DNA of 35,058 nt from Acidithiobacillus sp. (lineage in GTDB: Bacteria > Pseudomonadota > Gammaproteobacteria > Acidithiobacillales > Acidithiobacillaceae): NCBI GenBank assembly GCA_027365525.1, contig DAHXMJ010000057.1:73730-108787 (forward strand), written 5' to 3'. This document shows, in pieces, positions 5,438 through 18,631 of the stretch; position 1 is the stretch's first letter; each line of letters begins with the position of its first letter. Below the pieces are notes generated by a model. That model was given only the letters and a program-made list of their open reading frames with translations. It was not told the DNA's origin and did not search any database. The position numbers and the translations under genes were made by a program.

Positions 5438-6823
5438 CTATTCTCCGGTATCATCCAGCAGCTTGAAATCCTGTGGCGCAAGCTCGTGCTTGCGCATGAG
5501 CTTGTACAGGTCTGTTCGGTGGCGTCCGGCAATACGGGCTGCACGTGAAATGTTGCCATCGGTACTGCGGAGGAGATTCTCCAGGTAATGCCGCTCAAAA
5601 GCCGCTTTGGCGTCCTGGAGAGGAGGAAAGGCTCCCCGCCCACCGGAACGTCCGGGATCTGGAATGGAGCTGGCCTGCACCCATCCGGATTTGGTCAGGG
5701 TGACCGCAAGAATAACGGCGTTTTCCAGTTCCCGGACATTGCCTGGCCAGGGACGCCTAAGGAGTTTGTCCAGTGCCTCTGGACTGAAACCAGGGATGTC
5801 CCGCTGGAGTTTCCGGATTTCACGGTCAAGAAAATGCTGGCCAAGAAGCAGAATGTCTTCCGGACGTTCTGCCAGGCTGGGAACCCGGATGGGAATCACG
5901 TGTAGGCGGTAGTAGAGGTCCTCCCGGAATTTTTCCTCCCGGACAAGGGCATGGATATCTTGGTGGGTTGCACTGATCACACGGATGTCTACGGGATATT
6001 CTTCTCTTGCACCGACAGGGCGTACGTTCCCTTCCTGAAGCACCCGCAGCAGCTTGACCTGAAGGCTAATTGGGAGATCGGCGATCTCGTCCAGGAAAAG
6101 AGTACCCCCCTGGGCACTGCGGATCAGTCCCGCATTGTCACTGGTGGCACCCGTAAAGGCTCCTTTTACGTGGCCGAAAAGCTCACTTTCGGCCAGATCC
6201 CGGGGAATGGCACCACAGTTGACGGGTAAAAAGGGACCTGTTGCCCGAGAGCTGGCCAGATGGATGGTACGTGCTACTTTTTCCTTGCCAGATCCACTTT
6301 CTCCAGTCAGAAAAACGCTGGCCTCGGAGGGAGCGATCCGCCCCAGTTCATCTATCAGGGATTCCATGACCCGGCTGCGGTAGAGCAGGGTCTGGCCCGC
6401 CTGTCTGCGCAGGGCACCACGAAGGCAGCGGGTTTCGATGCTGGCCTGCCGTTGTTCCAGAGCTGCAGAGACCAGGTTGTGCAATTCCTCATGGCTGAAA
6501 GGCTTCCCCAGATAGCCAAATGCCTGGGCGCGCATTGCAGCGACAGCGTTGGGAATGGTGCCGTGTGCGGTAAGGATGATAACCGGAAGGTCAGGGTCCG
6601 TTTCCTGGAGCCGTTCCAGAATTTCCATCCCGTCCATTTCGGGCATTCTGAGGTCAGTAATCACGAGATCTGGAGGATCCATGGCCAGTGCCCTCACAGC
6701 CTGTACCGGATCTCCATATCCAGCCACCCTGTATCCCTCGCTTTCCAGCCAGAGACTGAGAAGGCGGAGGAAGTCCGGATCATCATCAATGAGGAAAATT
6801 GTTGTGCTTTCTTCGTCTGGCAT
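5438..6823 (-). CDS. glrR: Sigma-54-dependent response regulator, GlrR/QseF type
   Basis: This 461-aa NtrC-family activator carries a receiver domain (1-120), an AAA+ domain (about 145-370) and a Fis-type helix-turn-helix at the C-terminus. The receiver has the acidic pocket D13-D15, phospho-acceptor D57 in DLVITDLRMPEMDGM, T85 and K107. The AAA+ domain has Walker A GESGSGKE (174-181; Ser where Thr is usual), the sigma-54-contacting GAFTGA loop (221-226), Walker B TLFLDEIA and the WPGNVREL block. The helix-turn-helix is NISRAARIAGRHRTDLYKLM. The upstream genes encode a lipoprotein (9 bp away) and a histidine kinase, the same order as glrK-qseG-glrR in enterobacteria. In E. coli GlrR activates the sRNA gene glmY; the target here is unknown, but a sigma-54-type promoter lies at 17101. 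Confidence 0.93.
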   Translation of the reverse strand: MPDEESTTIFLIDDDPDFLRLLSLWLESEGYRVAGYGDPVQAVRALAMDPPDLVITDLRMPEMDGMEILERLQETDPDLPVIILTAHGTIPNAVAAMRAQAFGYLGKPFSHEELHNLVSAALEQRQASIETRCLRGALRRQAGQTLLYRSRVMESLIDELGRIAPSEASVFLTGESGSGKEKVARTIHLASSRATGPFLPVNCGAIPRDLAESELFGHVKGAFTGATSDNAGLIRSAQGGTLFLDEIADLPISLQVKLLRVLQEGNVRPVGAREEYPVDIRVISATHQDIHALVREEKFREDLYYRLHVIPIRVPSLAERPEDILLLGQHFLDREIRKLQRDIPGFSPEALDKLLRRPWPGNVRELENAVILAVTLTKSGWVQASSIPDPGRSGGRGAFPPLQDAKAAFERHYLENLLRSTDGNISRAARIAGRHRTDLYKLMRKHELAPQDFKLLDDTGE

Positions 6824-6832
6824 ATGGGGAGC

Positions 6833-7321
6833 TCAGTGCTGGCGGGTAACGGTCTTCTGCGCTTCCTGCTGTAGAAGCGATTCCAGACGGTGCAGTCGAC
6901 CAGAAATGCGCAGGTTCTGCTCTTGCAGGTTGGCGATGCGGGTAGCGGTTCTGGCTTGCCGATTCCTGCAGGTTTTCAGGGCTAGATCCTGCCTTTTCCA
7001 GGACCTGGTAAGTCTTCTCCATGGCCGGATTTGCACGGCCATGCCCGGATCCTGCGCAGCCATTGCCAGCTCCCTTGCCGCGTTGTCTATAGCTGTGCGG
7101 GTTAGTGGCTTGATGTCCAGATAGTGCCTGGCCAGGGAAAGATGGACTTGTGCGCAGCGTGGACCATCGGCCGGACCACAATTCCCCAAGGTTACCAGAA
7201 GTCTCTTCCCTTTGGCCTGAGATGAAGGGAAAGAAGCAATGGCCAGCCTGGAGCAGCCGGCCATTGCTATGATAGCTAGAATTGCAGCTGCCAGCAGAAA
7301 AAGAATCTTGGTTCTACCCAT
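6833..7321 (-). CDS. qseG: QseG-like outer-membrane lipoprotein of the two-component locus
   Basis: This 162-aa protein has a lipoprotein signal peptide: MGRTK, a hydrophobic stretch, and the box AMAGC with the lipidated Cys at 23. The mature part is helical; its C-terminal half (about 115-160) looks like a coiled coil (RIANLQEQNLRISGRLHRLE). A motif CGPADGPRCAQVHLSLA (about 48-64) holds two cysteines. In sequence it is poorly conserved, so the QseG name rests mainly on position: it lies between the kinase and the response regulator, overlapping the kinase stop by 8 bp and ending 9 bp before the regulator. In enterobacteria QseG interacts with the kinase periplasmic domain, and the same sensing role is inferred here. 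Confidence 0.72.
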   Translation of the reverse strand: MGRTKILFLLAAAILAIIAMAGCSRLAIASFPSSQAKGKRLLVTLGNCGPADGPRCAQVHLSLARHYLDIKPLTRTAIDNAARELAMAAQDPGMAVQIRPWRRLTRSWKRQDLALKTCRNRQARTATRIANLQEQNLRISGRLHRLESLLQQEAQKTVTRQH

Positions 7322-8810
7322 CAGGTTGTCCCCCTGTTCTCGGGCCGGGCAGCCAGAACTGGCCTAGAAGTCCTTTGGACAGGTTCTGCAGGCGTATCCA
7401 CCCGCCTTGGGCTCTCACCAATTCCCGGGCGATAGACAGCCCAAGACCTGTACCCTTGGGAATATCGCCTGCCCGGTGGACCTGGTAGAAATCTTCAAAT
7501 ACTTTTTCCTGCAGGGCTTCCGGAATTCCGGGACCTTCGTCCTGTACAGAAAACAGGGCACCATCTCTATCAGCGATAGCCGAAACCAGGATGCTGCTGG
7601 ATGGCGGAGCATATTTATAGCTGTTGCTCACCAGGTTTGCCAGAATCTGCAGTAGACGCTGGGGGTCTGCTAGGACCAGTATTTCCCCGCTACTGGATAT
7701 CACCAGCTGCTGTCCTTTCTTTCCCAGCAAGGGGATCATGCGGCGCTCCAGCTCTACAAGAACTGTATCCACCTCCAGAGCTGTCACATGGTATTCAAGC
7801 CGGCGGGCCTGCAGAGCATGCATGTCGAGCATTTCCTGGATTGCCAGAATCAATTCATGGACCTGCCGGCTGACAATTTCCAGAACCTCTCTCTGCTTTG
7901 GCCCAATTGGTCCAAGCCGCTCACTCAGCAGGAGTTCGCTGCCAGAATATGCCGATGCCAGTGGTGTTTTGAGTTCGTGGGATACCTGGCTCAGAAATAC
8001 GTGGCGCAGACGTTCATCTTCCTTTAGGCGCTGCTGCATCTGGGCAATGCCTGCTGCCAGTTCCCGCAGCTCCAGGGGACCGGTTTCTGCGACTTGGGTG
8101 CTGTGACCGGCGCCAATTCTTTCCAGAGCTGCACGGATATTCCTTAGGGGGCGGCTCAGCGTGACAGCTACGCGCCAGGGAATCAGTAGGGCCAGAAGCG
8201 CGGTCATCGTCACGAGGAGCCCAAGCAGCCAGATTGCGTGACGGCGGGCGGAATTGGCCTGTCTGGCTTGTGTCTGGAGCAGAGTTACCAGATCGCTGCG
8301 CAGACGGTGGAAATTTCTATCCACCTGTATCCTGAGCACTGCGCCGGCTTCGGGCGTAAAAGTACCAGCATACTTGTGCAGTATCTCCTGGAGATTTGCA
8401 AGATCGGTAGCAAGAGTGGGGTACTGGCCCAGATCCGGAAAAATGTTCCGCAGGTGCTGCTGTTCCTGGACCAGCAGAACATTCGCGGTGTTTTTGTATC
8501 CTTTCCCGGGCAGCAGGTTGCCCAGACTGCGGTAGAATTCCGCCTGGTTCTGGATCTCACGGATCCTGAGAATTTCCCGCTGCAGGGGAATTCCCACCTC
8601 AAGCAGGGTACTGCTGCTTTCTCCCAAGGTATAGATGGCCTGCCCAGCCATGGCCGCCATTAGCACAACCATGGCAAGTATCAGAGTGGCGACTGCACGT
8701 ACCCGCCGGGGAATCGATATGCCCTGGGTGGGGGAGGAAATGGTGGCATTACCTCTTTTCCACCAGGACAGGCCAAGAAATTCAGCCACGGACATAACAG
8801 ACCTCGCCAT
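7314..8810 (-). CDS. glrK: Sensor histidine kinase, GlrK/QseE type
   Basis: This 498-aa membrane kinase has two transmembrane segments (about 38-60 and 192-212) bracketing a ~130-residue helical periplasmic sensor domain. A HAMP domain (about 213-265) and a HisKA domain with phospho-acceptor His278 (LSQVSHELKTPLAS) follow. The ATPase domain shows the N box at 392-396 (NLVSN), G1 at 424-430 (DEGPGIP) and G2 at 453-458 (GTGLGL). The frame is open upstream to 9092, but that part would overlap recN and lacks family features. The ATG at 8810 has AGGAGG five bases before it and is clearly the better start. The gene leads a kinase-lipoprotein-regulator operon; the ~205-bp gap to recN could hold its promoter. 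Confidence 0.93.
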   Translation of the reverse strand: MARSVMSVAEFLGLSWWKRGNATISSPTQGISIPRRVRAVATLILAMVVLMAAMAGQAIYTLGESSSTLLEVGIPLQREILRIREIQNQAEFYRSLGNLLPGKGYKNTANVLLVQEQQHLRNIFPDLGQYPTLATDLANLQEILHKYAGTFTPEAGAVLRIQVDRNFHRLRSDLVTLLQTQARQANSARRHAIWLLGLLVTMTALLALLIPWRVAVTLSRPLRNIRAALERIGAGHSTQVAETGPLELRELAAGIAQMQQRLKEDERLRHVFLSQVSHELKTPLASAYSGSELLLSERLGPIGPKQREVLEIVSRQVHELILAIQEMLDMHALQARRLEYHVTALEVDTVLVELERRMIPLLGKKGQQLVISSSGEILVLADPQRLLQILANLVSNSYKYAPPSSSILVSAIADRDGALFSVQDEGPGIPEALQEKVFEDFYQVHRAGDIPKGTGLGLSIARELVRAQGGWIRLQNLSKGLLGQFWLPGPRTGGQPDG

Positions 8811-9015
8811 GGGCGCCTCCTGGTACCACGCACTCATATGAATTGTACGGGATCCGCAGCCATCTGCACACTGCGATATTCTGGCTACGATCCTGTTTTT
8901 GGGGACATTTCGTCCTGTGACATACAGAACCGGTCTTTCAGGTGCCTCAGGTGGCAGTGTACCGTTGCAGACCAGGGGGAAAATGAAAGGGGTGCGGCCA
9001 CATGCCAGCAGTGTT
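8811..9015. other. Spacer between recN and the sensor kinase
   Basis: This 205-bp gap on the minus-strand series holds no recognisable gene. Its kinase-proximal end contains the AGGAGG ribosome binding site used by the kinase. The kinase reading frame is open through it, but no good start lies inside. A promoter for the two-component operon is expected here, though I could not assign -35/-10 boxes. Confidence 0.4.
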
Positions 9016-10686
9016 TTACCTGGCTGAAAGCAGTTTTTCCGCAGCAGCCCGGATGGATGTGCTGATTTCGATTCCACCAAGCATGCGGGCAATTTCTTCC
9101 ACTTGGCCCATAGCGTCCAGGGGGAGAATCTGGCTTTCGGCCTGCCCGAGTTCCAGGTTTTTCTGCACTTTCAAGTGCTGGTGGCACTGGGCTGCCACTT
9201 GGGGTAAATGGGTAACACACAGAACTTGGTAATGCTGCCCCAGACTGCGCAGTAGACGGCCAATGCGCTCGGCTACGGCACCTCCCACTCCCACGTCTAC
9301 TTCATCAAAAATGAGGGTTTCTGCTCCTTCCGGTTCGGCCAGCAAAACCTGAAGGGCCAAGTTGATACGTGAAAGTTCGCCACCGGATGCGACTTCCGAG
9401 AGGGATTTGGGTGGGTGCCCAGGATTGGCGGAAATGCGAATTTCTACACGGTCCCAGCCTTTTCCTAACCAGGACTCCTCATTGTCCGGATTGCTTTCCA
9501 TGTGGATTTCTACAACAGCATGTGGCAAGCCCAGCCCATGAAGCTGGGATTCTATGGCTCTTGCCAAGGGGTCAAGGTGTGCCCGGCGTCCAGTGCCAAG
9601 CTCCTTGGCCAGATTCTGGTAGTCCTGTCTTGCTGCCCTGAGTGATTCTTCAGCCTTAAGGACTGGATCCCCTTCTGCGCTTTCCGCTGCAAGTTCCTCT
9701 TTCAGCTGACTGAACAGTTCCATTAGTCCGGTCATGTCCGTATGGTGTTTGCGCTGCAGGTCCTGCAGCTGCTGGATACGGCTGGAAACCTGGGCTAGGC
9801 GATCTGGGTCTGCTTCTAGGTCCTGCAGGTAATGCTGCAACGCATGCACGGCCTCTTCTGTTTGGATTCTGGCCCCTTCCAGCAGTTTCTCCGTTTCTCC
9901 CAGACTGGGGTCCCTTCCCAGAGCCTGATGTATACAGCGATAGGACTCAGTGAGCTTGCGGAGGGTGCTATCAGGTCTGCCATCAAGAATGGATAGTATG
10001 GTTGCAACGGTCTCCCGAAGCTGTGTCACCGCACCAAGACGCTGAAGCTCTGCCCCCAGGTCCTCCCATTCACCGTCATGCAGGTTGGCGTTTTCCAGTT
10101 CTTCCCACAGAAACTGCCGCCATTCCCGCTGGGCTGCATGCTGTTCGAGCCCGGCCCGAAGTGTCCTTTGGGCTTCCCGCAGTTCCCGCCATTTGCGGTA
10201 CCGGTCCCCCATCCGGTCGGTTTTTTCCCGGAGTCCGGCATATCGGTCTAGGAGATCCATTTGCTGGTCAGCCCGCACCATGCGCAGATGGGTGTTCTGG
10301 CCCAGGAGATCCACCAGAAGCTCGCCCAGCTCCCGGTTCTGGCTGGTGCTGATGGCATGACCGTTCAGGAAAATCCTGTTTCTCCCCTGTCTGGGTAGAA
10401 TGCGCCGGATGATGCAGGTGCCTTCCTCGCCGAACCCGCTGCTGGCCATCCACTCTGCAGCTGCACTTCCGTCCGCGATACCGAATGTGGCAGTGATTTC
10501 AGCCTGTTCGGTTCCGTGGCGGACGAGCTGCGGGTTTCCCCTGTCTCCCAGAACTAGAGAAATGGCATCCACAAAAATGGACTTTCCAGCTCCTGTTTCT
10601 CCGGTTAGAACGGTTAATCCCGGTGCCAGATCCAGATCGAGATCGCGAATCAGGGCAAGATTGCGTATCTGCAGGGAATGCAGCAT
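9016..10686 (-). CDS. recN: DNA repair protein RecN
   Basis: RecN is an SMC-like ATPase that acts early in double-strand break repair. The 556-aa protein has Walker A GETGAGKS (29-36) after the family N-terminus MLHSLQIRNLALIRDLDLDL. A long coiled-coil middle part (about 150-370) follows. The C-terminal ABC half carries the signature LSEVASGGELSRINLALQ, Walker B TLIFDEVDVGVGG, and the switch block QVLCVTHLPQVAAQ. It overlaps the nadK stop by one base (TGATG), so the two are co-transcribed. nadK and recN are neighbours in many proteobacteria. Confidence 0.97.
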   Translation of the reverse strand: MLHSLQIRNLALIRDLDLDLAPGLTVLTGETGAGKSIFVDAISLVLGDRGNPQLVRHGTEQAEITATFGIADGSAAAEWMASSGFGEEGTCIIRRILPRQGRNRIFLNGHAISTSQNRELGELLVDLLGQNTHLRMVRADQQMDLLDRYAGLREKTDRMGDRYRKWRELREAQRTLRAGLEQHAAQREWRQFLWEELENANLHDGEWEDLGAELQRLGAVTQLRETVATILSILDGRPDSTLRKLTESYRCIHQALGRDPSLGETEKLLEGARIQTEEAVHALQHYLQDLEADPDRLAQVSSRIQQLQDLQRKHHTDMTGLMELFSQLKEELAAESAEGDPVLKAEESLRAARQDYQNLAKELGTGRRAHLDPLARAIESQLHGLGLPHAVVEIHMESNPDNEESWLGKGWDRVEIRISANPGHPPKSLSEVASGGELSRINLALQVLLAEPEGAETLIFDEVDVGVGGAVAERIGRLLRSLGQHYQVLCVTHLPQVAAQCHQHLKVQKNLELGQAESQILPLDAMGQVEEIARMLGGIEISTSIRAAAEKLLSAR

Positions 10687-15526: not shown

Positions 15527-16410
15527 AGCCTTCCCGGTTGCGCGTAGTGGCGGATGATCTGATGACCCGTTTTGGCGTCAGTCAGCGCCAGGCCTGTGCC
15601 GTGCTCAAACTGTCACGATCGGTGTATGGCTACCGGTCGGTCGCACGGGACTCGAGTGTGCTGGTCAGGCAGGCGGATTCGGGAGATCACCGGGACCCGG
15701 ATTTATTACGGGTATCGCCAGGTTCATGTGCTGTTGCGCCGGGAAGGCTGGAAGGACAATCACAAGCGGGTGTACCGGCTGTATCGTGAGCAGGGCCTGT
15801 CATTACGGCATAAACGGCCACGGCGCAGCAGGGCGGCCCGGTTGCGTCAGCCGAAACAGACCGTCAGCCAGACCAATGAGATCTGGAGCATGGATTTTGT
15901 GGCAGATGCACTGTATGACGGGCGACGTTTACGCACCCTGACGATTGTTGATAACCATACCCGAGAGTGTCTGGCCATTGGCGTGGGTTCTGGCCTGAGG
16001 GGGAGCATGTGGTCCCCGCCCTGAGCCGGATTGCAGGGCAACGGCCGCTCCCACGATTTATCAGGGCCGACAATGGAAGCGAATTCATTCCAAGGTGATG
16101 GACAAATGGGCTTGCGAAAATGGTGTGGAAATAGATTTCTCAAGGCCCGGGAAACCGACTGACAATGCACAGTGTGAATCCTTTAATGGCCGGTTCCGTG
16201 AGGAGTGTCTGAACGAACACTGGTTTTTATCGCTGGAGGATGCAAAAGAGAAAATCGGGGTCTGGCGAGTGTACTATAACGAAGTGCGTCCCCATTCTGC
16301 ATTGGGCTGGATGACTCCGGCCGAATACGCCAGACAGCAAACAGCCGGAGCGATCCGGCAGAACCCCAAAAGCCGGATTTTTCCACTTAAGGCTGGATCT
16401 GTTTCGGGGT
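15514..16410 (+). pseudogene. IS3-type OrfB transposase, frame-broken
   Basis: OrfB is the catalytic DDE transposase. From 15538 it reads VADDLMTRFGVSQRQACAVL in one frame. It must shift near 15660-15685 to reach REITGTRIYYGYRQVHVLLR and the first Asp (EIWSMDFVADAL). It then shifts again at the G5 run (15999-16003) to read [20 protein letters not shown], with the second Asp in ADNGSEF. A third shift near 16088 leads into [33 protein letters not shown] (Glu) and [15 protein letters not shown]. All three catalytic acids are present, but three separate frame breaks make the gene dead unless they are sequencing errors. Confidence 0.88.
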
Positions 16411-16497
16411 CAACCTCAGCATTTTTGGGATTCTGCTTGGGGATGGCCCGACGGATGGGATACACTTTTCGAATCTTTAGGAAATCGGAGCAAAAGC

Positions 16498-16773
16498 ATG
16501 CCAAGAATGGTGCACTGTATCAGGCAGGGGTGTGAAGCAGAGGGATTGGACCGTCCTCCTTACCCTGGAGCGTTGGGTGAGCGGATCTACCGGGAGGTAT
16601 CCAAAGACGCCTGGCAGGAGTGGCTCCGGCACCAGACCATGCTCATCAATGAATACCGCCTGTCTCCTATTGATCCGAAGTCCCGCTCCTTTCTGGAAAA
16701 ACAGATGGAATCCTTTTTTTTCGGGGATGGGGTACAAACTCCGGAAGGGTACGTGCCACAGGAAAAGGCCTGA
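16498..16773 (+). CDS. yggX: Probable Fe(2+)-trafficking protein YggX
   Basis: YggX is a small cytoplasmic protein linked to iron handling and protection of Fe-S clusters from oxidation. The 91-aa length is typical. Family blocks are [31 protein letters not shown], then [40 protein letters not shown] and FFGDG. The usual N-terminal MSRTVxC is MPRMVHC, keeping the Cys. A ribosome binding site CGGAG lies about 8 nt upstream. In E. coli the order is mutY-yggX; here ~1.66 kb of decayed mobile and non-coding DNA lie between them, so yggX must use its own promoter or read-through. Confidence 0.96.
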
Positions 16774-16792
16774 AGACGGGTGTAGCCTTCAG
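16770..16792 (+). terminator. Possible weak terminator of yggX
   Basis: A 6-bp stem CTGAAG/CTTCAG with an 11-nt loop overlaps the yggX stop codon; TTTTATTATTAAAA follows about 15 nt later. It is a weak candidate because the T-tract is not adjacent. Confidence 0.3.
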
Positions 16793-16828
16793 ACGACATG
16801 GGTTCTGTTTTATTATTAAAAGGTTATC

Positions 16829-16930: not shown

Positions 16931-16951
16931 GGAAATTATAAGAAAATTTCC
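16931..16951. promoter_or_regulatory. Inverted repeat, candidate upstream activator site
   Basis: A perfect 7-bp inverted repeat, GGAAATT-N7-AATTTCC, lies about 160 bp upstream of the sigma-54-type promoter at 17101. That is a usual distance for an enhancer-binding activator site. The function is inferred from symmetry and position only. Confidence 0.4.
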
Positions 16952-17100
16952 CCTTTCCTGTTCCTAGCCCTGCGGGTATGGACAATTGTTTGGATCAGCA
17001 GATTCGCCCCCAAGGATTCTGGCGACGCTAAGCCGCTCTCCAATTCATTAATTCTCCCTATTTTTTCGTAACATTATGTATAACAAATCTATTTTATAGA

Positions 17101-17116
17101 TGGCACGGATAGTGCT
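17101..17116 (+). promoter_or_regulatory. Sigma-54-type promoter (-24/-12)
   Basis: The sequence TGGCACGGATAGTGCT matches the sigma-54 consensus TGGCACG-N4-TTGCW with a single mismatch and exact GG-GC spacing. It faces the 67-aa peptide gene, whose ATG is 72 nt downstream of the element, leaving a leader of about 60 nt. The region is AT-rich and non-coding. A sigma-54 activator gene lies in the same window (5438-6823), but a link is inference. Confidence 0.6.
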
Positions 17117-17187
17117 AATTACAGACTGCTGTACACGATGAGTCCCTGAAAATCAAATATATTATTACTTTCTGATGGAGTGATTTC

Positions 17188-17391
17188 ATGAAGAAGATCG
17201 TTGCCCTGACGGCTGTCCTCTCTTTTCTGACCGCTTCTGCTGCATTTGCTACCGAGGCTCCCAAGATTGAACATAAGACCCCTGTCCACAAAATGGTCGC
17301 CCATCACAAGGTGGTCCATCACAAGGTGATCCGGCACAAGATTGCCATGAAGAAAGAGGTCAGGAAGCCCGAGCACAGGGCAGCCCAGTAG
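17188..17391 (+). CDS. Exported His/Lys-rich basic peptide, Asr-like in composition
   Basis: This 67-aa precursor has a clear Sec signal peptide (MKKIVALTAVLSFLTASAAFA, 21 residues, AFA motif before the cut). The ~46-residue mature part is very basic and histidine-rich, with near-repeats MVAHHKVVHHKVIRHKIAMK built on an HHKV unit. Composition resembles the E. coli acid-shock protein Asr (signal peptide, then a Lys/His-rich disordered chain), but I see no alignable homology beyond that. A role in acid tolerance, metal binding or envelope buffering is inferred. The gene has GGAG seven bases before the ATG, a sigma-54-type promoter upstream and a strong terminator downstream, so it is a stand-alone unit. 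Confidence 0.82.
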   Translation: MKKIVALTAVLSFLTASAAFATEAPKIEHKTPVHKMVAHHKVVHHKVIRHKIAMKKEVRKPEHRAAQ

Positions 17392-17421: not shown

Positions 17422-17450
17422 AGTCCGGGCTCTGCCCGGACTTTTCTGTT
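17422..17450 (+). terminator. Rho-independent terminator of the basic peptide gene
   Basis: A 9-bp perfect stem, AGTCCGGGC (17422-17430) with GCCCGGACT (17434-17442), 3-nt loop, is followed by TTTCTGTT. It lies 30 bp past the stop codon. The group II intron starts directly after the T-rich tail. Confidence 0.9.
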
Positions 17451-18564
17451 GTGCGCCCAGCATGGGCGCACCCTTGCGGGTGCAAGTCCCGTCGTAAGCT
17501 GATCACGGCGAACGAAGCGAAGCGCAACTTGCGTGAGGGCGACCAAGCGTGGGGAGGAAGCGTGGAGCGTAAACTGCGAGCCGATGGACAAGAACCGGAT
17601 AGAAGGTACTGTTGAGCAGGGCGAGCGGGCAACAAACCGCGAAGCTCTCGTGATCAAGGCGAGGCGGTGTAAATCCGGCGGTTGCGCAGTGAAGGAGTGC
17701 GTTCTTGCCTGGGGAGGTCTCGCCCTGCGCCTGAAAGGGCGACGGTGAGGAACCGGAGCGAGAAGTCAGCAAAGGCCGTAGTAGCTGTCGACACGAAGCG
17801 AAGGGCCGAACGAGTAGGAGGGTCGAAGGCCGTGTCGCTCGGACGTGCAGTGCATCAGAAGCCCGTGCAGGCGGGGCGTATCGCGCGAAGGCGAGGTGAA
17901 GCCGAGTCCTGCAACGTTTACGTGCGCAGTCGGAAGGCGGGCGAACGGGTGCTGGCGAGCTTGCGCAGACTCTACGACCGACTCCACCTGAAGGTCAACG
18001 AAGCCAAGACGGCCGTGGCACCGGCCTTGAACCGTAAGTTTCTGGGCTATGCCTTCTGGTATGGCCAGGACGGACAGGTCAAGCGCAAGGTGGCCGGCAA
18101 GGCGATGGAGACCTTCAGGCAACGTATCCGTGAACTGACACGCCGCTCCGGCGGGCGCAGCCTGCCGGAGATCGCCGAACGGCTGCGGGCCTACGTGCCG
18201 GGGTGGAATGCGTACTTCCATCTCGCGCAGACACCCGGGGTGTTCCGCGGATTAGACGAGTGGATCAGGCACCGGCTGCGTGCAGTGCAGCTCAAGCATT
18301 GGCGCCGGGGAACAACGATGTACCGGGAGTTAAAAGCGATGGGGGCGTCGGAAAACGACGCCCGTGCAGTGGCCGCGAACAGTCGTCGCTGGTGGCGCAA
18401 CAGCCGCTTGCGACTGAACCGGGCGATTCCCATTGCCTATTTCGACCGGCTCGGCGTACCTCGGCTCTCATGACCTCAACTACTCGAACCGCCCGGTTCG
18501 GACCCGCATGCCGGGTGGTGTGGGAGGGGATCGGTCAGGATACCTGACCGCCCCCTATCCCGAT
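17451..18564 (+). mobile_element. Group II intron, internally deleted
   Basis: The 5' end is GTGCGCCC, matching the group II GUGYG start, and forms a perfect 8-bp stem with GGGCGCAC (17464-17471). A second hairpin CTTGC/GCAAG follows, typical of domain I. After the reverse transcriptase remnant come domain V (9-bp stem ACCGCCCGG at 18488-18496 with CCGGGTGGT at 18511-18519, one G-U pair) and domain VI (GGTCAGG-ATA-CCTGACC, 18533-18549). Domain VI has a candidate branch-point A at 18557, seven bases before the 3' end CCCGAT at 18564. At 1114 bp it is far shorter than a full intron (~1.9-2.5 kb), because the encoded protein has lost its N-terminal half. It sits 8 nt after a terminator stem, the habit of class C introns. 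Confidence 0.87.
17907..18473 (+). pseudogene. Group II intron reverse transcriptase/maturase, N-terminus deleted
   Basis: The protein joins an intron-leader translation (ending RRRGEAE) directly to SCNVYVRSRKAGERVLASLR. In intact intron proteins this stretch follows the catalytic YADD (usually YADDCNVYVRS). So RT blocks 0-4 and the YADD acids are gone, while the palm end, thumb and maturase remain: KVNEAKTAVAPALNRKFLGY, LRAYVPGWNAYFHLAQTPG, then RRWWRNSRLRLNRAIPIAYF and DRLGVPRLS. About 188 of ~420-470 residues survive. No HNH endonuclease domain follows. It cannot reverse transcribe; a residual maturase-like RNA binding role is conceivable but unproven. Confidence 0.88.
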
Positions 18565-18631
18565 TAGTAGGGGGCTCCGGTATTCTTCTGGTTTCCTTGC
18601 TTTCCCTGTTGGAAAAGCCGGACTTCCTCCC

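Follow-up and report, generated by a model that had tools for sequence, protein, structure and literature searches.

The stretch of DNA analysed here (the window, 35,058 nt) belongs to a draft genome of 1.37 Mb that is 62%-complete and whose nearest relatives, judged by the peptide described below, are Acidithiobacillus and its sister genera. The window carries a short gene for a secreted peptide, preceded by a sigma-54-type promoter and followed by an intrinsic terminator, together with genes for a GlrR-type regulator, a sensor kinase and a predicted lipoprotein (Table 1). In what follows, g1 is the genus of the window, g2 and g3 are the sister genera in which the peptide gene stands beside glrR_2, and g4 is grouped with g1. 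The sister species of the window encodes a GlrR that is 92% identical to that of the window.

Table 1. Features of the window, with their evidence
Feature	Position	Strand	Evidence
GlrR-type sigma-54 response regulator	5438-6823	-	NF011695 GlrR, 470.6 bits, short of the curated threshold (763)
Predicted lipoprotein between kinase and regulator, in QseG's position	6833-7321	-	Inspection and position
Sensor histidine kinase, GlrK/QseE-like	7314-9092	-	33% identity to E. coli GlrK over 285 aa
Best candidate GlrR/QseF-type activating site, TGTAGCCTTCAGACGACA, 9/10 to TGTCG-N8-CGACA	16781-16798	+	Sequence match, aligned in the sister species
AT-rich dyad GGAAATT-N7-AATTTCC, judged not functional	16931-16951		Not conserved, chance-level
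GGCGACG, right half of the promoter-proximal GlrR-type site	17021-17027	+	Identical in the sister species
Sigma-54 (-24/-12) promoter, TGGCACGGATAGTGCT	17101-17116	+	Conserved in 29/29 homologous loci
Predicted 5' untranslated leader	17126-17187	+	Start predicted ~12 nt after the GC element
Gene for a secreted Lys/His-rich peptide, 67 aa	17188-17391	+	ORF reading, family-wide homologues
Intrinsic terminator, AGTCCGGGC-TCT-GCCCGGACTTTTCT, ending the one-gene unit	17427-17450	+	Direct reading

The original prediction of an exported His/Lys-rich peptide is borne out by the reading frame, whose N-terminus (MKKIVALTAVLSFLTASAAFA/TEAPK...) is by inspection a typical Sec signal and is followed by a Lys/His-rich remainder. 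The mature product is predicted to be short, basic and His/Lys-rich and, going by its composition, is unlikely to fold. The terminator was missed by a simple scan, its T-run being below the length set by the rule; in the relatives that were read, a hairpin and T-run likewise lie 3' of the gene. Homologues of the peptide were found in 25 of the 40 genomes searched, essentially all of them Acidithiobacillaceae, and outside this family the same 40 genomes yielded no convincing homologue. The start codon and an intact signal peptide are kept in all homologues, the repeat part varying in length.

The peptide resembles Asr (NF033636 / PF06392) in being short and exported, with a signal peptide and Lys/His-rich repeats. 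Membership in that family was rejected: the best score, obtained in a relative, is 23.4 bits against a cut-off of 50, and the window's own peptide matches neither model. The resemblance seen in relatives may be one of composition only. The promoter type also differs, asr of E. coli being regulated by PhoB/RstA. None of five published Acidithiobacillus orphan families matches in both size and class, and no paper on the secreted peptide was found in the open-access literature.

Several neighbouring elements deserve mention in their own right. A paralogous exported protein of ~120 aa, rich in Gln, Arg, Gly and Met (L147:2421-2780, also L026 and L022), has the same signal-peptide start, promoter, enhancer and leader as the peptide gene, and in two congeners its gene and that of the peptide are ~1 kb apart. 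Another short exported Lys/His-rich peptide, MSVKTSAIVVALASLFAVSSAFA..., is encoded in the complete congener G007 (L112 near 6707; G007 1306707), with a strong sigma-54 site and two weak GlrR-type sites in front. Between mutY and the peptide gene, the window carries a broken IS3-type transposase in two ORF fragments (15572-16535). A degenerate group II intron (17452-18567), with two Rfam domain matches and only the maturase domain left, the reverse-transcriptase part being lost, seems to start a few bases past the peptide gene terminator and is absent from that place in the sister species (L002). Class C group II introns, which target terminators, are placed in this way.

Conservation of the sigma-54 promoter

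The window contains a single match to TGGCAYNNNNNNTGCW, where 0.57 would be expected by chance, so that the occurrence of TGGCACGGATAGTGCT is in itself at chance level; its significance comes from conservation at a fixed position. Phylogenetic footprinting was performed on 29 distinct homologous loci in Acidithiobacillaceae, oriented before comparison, three of which encode the different ~120-aa exported protein rather than the peptide. In all 29 loci the element lies 81-90 bp 5' of the start codon and the TGG...TGC spacing is maintained; GG, A and TGC are invariant, as are the GG and GC dinucleotides, among 22 distinct promoter sequences. The consensus is TGGCAY-N6-TGC, the exceptions being one GGGCAC and one TGGTAC, and the flanks give a background of 0.007 expected matches per 110 bp. 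The contig of the window also encodes RpoN (PF04552, 232.9 bits). The sigma-54 promoter originally proposed is thus strongly supported, and RpoN almost certainly switches on the peptide gene, with a predicted start site at approximately 17126-17127.

That the -24/-12 match arose by chance and a sigma-70 promoter is used instead appears highly improbable. Such a reading could draw on the chance expectation within the window, but it would have to account for the fixed position in every locus against so low a background. Furthermore, a scan of the window found, close to the start codon, no sigma-70-like site directed towards the gene, the only match on the + strand being at 16788, ~400 bp upstream of the start codon.

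Activator sites and GlrR-type regulators

All sigma-54 promoters need an ATP-driven activator. The original prediction had pointed to a perfect 7-bp dyad, AT-rich, at a usual place for an activator site. The dyad exists, but it is missing in the closest relative, the sister species, and with 70 perfect 7-bp dyads (gap 3-12) in the window, or 0.92 per 460 bp, it was rejected as an enhancer. Better enhancer candidates are provided by TGTCG-N8-CGACA-like sites, which are found 5' of nearly all homologues, as one or two and mostly two per gene. These match the published GlrR/QseF site of E. coli, Salmonella and Proteus, TGTC-N10-GACA (PMC4987338; PMC8745638), which is also given as TGT-N12-ACA (PMC6075780).

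In the species of the window, these sites are degraded relative to those of relatives. What is left is a distal 9/10 site and a proximal half-site, the latter standing at the same place relative to the promoter as the complete sites of relatives. Nothing else in the window matches TGTCG-N8-CGACA as closely as the distal site, with one mismatch or none (chance expectation, 0.68), and the counterpart of this site in the sister species, TGTTGCCTTCAGGCGACT, is an 8/10 match. The distal site is located ~320 bp from the promoter and overlaps with an inverted repeat that scores as a terminator on the - strand. Because the enhancer is weaker in this lineage and its distal copy sits on a hairpin, the assignment is less certain here than in the family as a whole.

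The original prediction had also noted a sigma-54 activator with its kinase and lipoprotein in the window. The GlrR-type activator and the kinase are present, and the kinase adjoins glrR throughout Acidithiobacillaceae. The lipoprotein is recognised by inspection only; its identification as a QseG homologue was rejected, as neither BLASTP nor Pfam gave any QseG similarity. The family holds two GlrR-type regulators, GlrR_2 being 57% and the window's GlrR 46% identical to E. coli GlrR, and both keep a recognition helix near-identical to that of the E. coli protein. In the window's genome, the gene for GlrR_2 is on contig C56.

Gene order adds to this picture. In g2 and g3 the genes run mutY - peptide - kinase - lipoprotein - glrR_2, and the peptide and kinase genes are 0.3 to 2.6 kb apart. 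The peptide gene there precedes qseE, a lipoprotein gene whose product is not recognisably QseG, and glrR_2. The order in E. coli is glmY - glrK - qseG - glrR (PMC6075780). In most g1 and g4 genomes, including that of the window, the peptide gene is divergent from glrKR and ~8-10 kb away; g1 thus lacks the arrangement seen in g2 and g3, and in the window a group II intron is found 3' of the gene.

Altogether, these sites, helices and gene orders suggest that a GlrR/QseF-type envelope sensor system probably activates the peptide gene. The proposal of GlrR control is supported for the type of activator and less so for the particular copy. GlrR_2, rather than the GlrR of the window, may be the cognate activator, since it is closer to E. 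coli GlrR and lies beside the peptide gene in the sister genera. A further hint comes from the sister genome G005, in which no GlrR_2 was found and in which the 400 bp next to the peptide gene contain no full site.

Genome-wide site pattern and predicted regulon

The relation between site and promoter was followed across the complete congener G007 (2.74 Mb). Sites of at least 9/10 with the exact 8-bp spacer lie upstream of sigma-54 sites at 68, 69, 71, 81, 81, 81 and 83 bp, whereas spacers of 6, 7, 9 and 10 give no site in the same interval, against seven for a spacer of 8. The positions form two clusters separated by about one helical turn, which suits an activator that must face the polymerase. 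The strict site-plus-promoter pattern occurs in 29/29 genomes of the family, a reversed-pattern control giving three matches in total, and a class-wide scan found it in 18 of 185 genomes outside Acidithiobacillaceae.

Among the loci read, the genes behind this pattern are mostly three: opgG/mdoG, the secreted peptide gene and the gene for a 72-aa basic protein (MDSTANLLAALRRVRSFPSY...). OpgG/MdoG was identified in G007 by PF04349 (548 bits), and the genome of the window likewise has the pattern in front of opgG (L209). The 72-aa protein, which has no Pfam or NCBIfam match, is encoded ~+31 to +45 after the promoter and stands behind a GlrR-type site and sigma-54 promoter in many Acidithiobacillaceae (for example L186, L188 and L191). 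In G007, the pattern is additionally found before genes for outer-membrane-protein-like and other exported proteins. As a separate observation, similar 224-aa exported outer-membrane-like proteins are encoded at G007 1755352 and 1815498 (L134, L137), each with a strong sigma-54 site; the former has a GlrR-type site 81 bp upstream.

It could be argued that the sigma-54 promoter is served by another enhancer-binding protein, such as NtrC, NtrX, PilR or TspR, and that the TGTC-N10-GACA sites are incidental. G007 encodes about a dozen proteins that resemble sigma-54 activators, and nine activator groups are described for the class in the main text of one study (PMC12194929), so that another family could contribute; the degraded sites of the window itself point the same way. 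Against this stand the exact spacer specificity and the 68-83 bp positioning in G007, the recurrence of the pattern throughout the family, its agreement with the published GlrR site and the physical linkage of the peptide gene to glrR_2 or glrR. Moreover, among the activators of G007, a recognition helix close to that of E. coli GlrR is found in the two GlrR-type proteins alone. A different activator is therefore considered unlikely, and activation by a GlrR/QseF-type regulator is retained.

According to the same study, RpoN occurs class-wide in Acidithiobacillia, as do the two systems GlrR/GlrK and GlrR_2/QseE. Its main text gives sigma-54 targets for HupR, NtrC, NtrX and TspR and none for GlrR, and mentions neither GlrR sites nor such a peptide.

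Peptide or RNA output, and the proposed response

The position of the gene in g2 and g3 raises the question of whether the transcript takes GlmY's place and works mainly as a regulatory RNA, the peptide being secondary or absent. In favour of an RNA are the shared genomic position, the same type of activator site, and the shortness of a transcript that has conserved twin hairpins at its 5' end and a terminator. In the mRNAs of relatives, the first hairpin opens no more than 2-3 nt from the predicted start; the pairs are GCUG..CAGC or GCCG..CGGC, followed by CCGC..GCGG, and a U-A to C-G swap in the first hairpin, read by eye, is compensatory. MAFFT alignment of the leaders displaces the stems between genera. 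The z-scores are weak relative to shuffled sequences (-1.9 to -0.1 in relatives, +1.5 in the window), and the leader of the window itself does not fold, the twin hairpins being lost in its species. Given these modest energies and the unfolded leader of the window, the hairpins are regarded as a side feature, perhaps one of mRNA protection; their beginning at predicted +2/+3 is consistent with the predicted start. Rfam gave no GlmY/GlmZ-like match in the window at the gathering threshold, nor in a sister-genus locus at a permissive one. In addition, the signal peptide and start codon are maintained in every homologue despite changes in repeat length, and the gene has good ribosome-binding sites. 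An RNA as the main product is thus very unlikely.

The reading that we favour, and hold with good confidence, is that of a one-gene sigma-54 unit, likely activated by GlrR/QseF, whose exported peptide takes part in an envelope-maintenance response. Under this model, which draws on comparisons between genomes, the gene would be read by sigma-54 RNA polymerase from the conserved promoter. A phosphorylated regulator of the GlrR/QseF family would be the most likely activator, as suggested by sites, phasing and synteny, and, bound at the upstream TGTC-N10-GACA-like sites, would reach the promoter via DNA looping. After export, the Lys/His-rich peptide, probably unstructured, would act in the periplasm, and OpgG/MdoG (periplasmic glucans) and the small basic protein would share in the response of the predicted regulon. 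In A. ferrooxidans, OpgG/MdoG increases upon exposure to copper, and E. coli expressing it became more copper-resistant (PMC6070983). Because OpgG/MdoG shares the site pattern, a protective role of the peptide in the envelope or periplasm can be proposed. The peptide may also serve in acid stress, as suggested in the original prediction. As to biochemistry, one can only guess, for example, at charge or proton buffering, or at binding of polyanions or metals.

The proposed system is like the GlrR/QseF regulon of Enterobacteriaceae (glmY, glmZ, rpoE) in its sigma-54 promoter, TGTC-N10-GACA sites and envelope theme, and, in the sister genera, in having a target before the kinase, lipoprotein and regulator genes. 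It differs in its output, which comprises a basic peptide, opgG and a 72-aa protein rather than an sRNA or rpoE, in its two GlrR paralogues and in a lipoprotein with no detectable QseG similarity. We give somewhat better than even chances to a model in which GlrR/QseF and sigma-54 in Acidithiobacillaceae drive opgG and a secreted peptide that takes the position of glmY in the sister genera, so that a protein-based envelope-protection regulon replaces an RNA-based one, the peptide perhaps feeding back on the periplasmic sensor. If so, these genes would be the first predicted targets of the orphan GlrR systems of biomining acidophiles and would tie these systems to envelope protection via OpgG/MdoG. 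It would also suggest that the output of a conserved sensor-activator can be a secreted peptide here and a regulatory RNA in enterobacteria, with an unchanged DNA-binding code and gene order.
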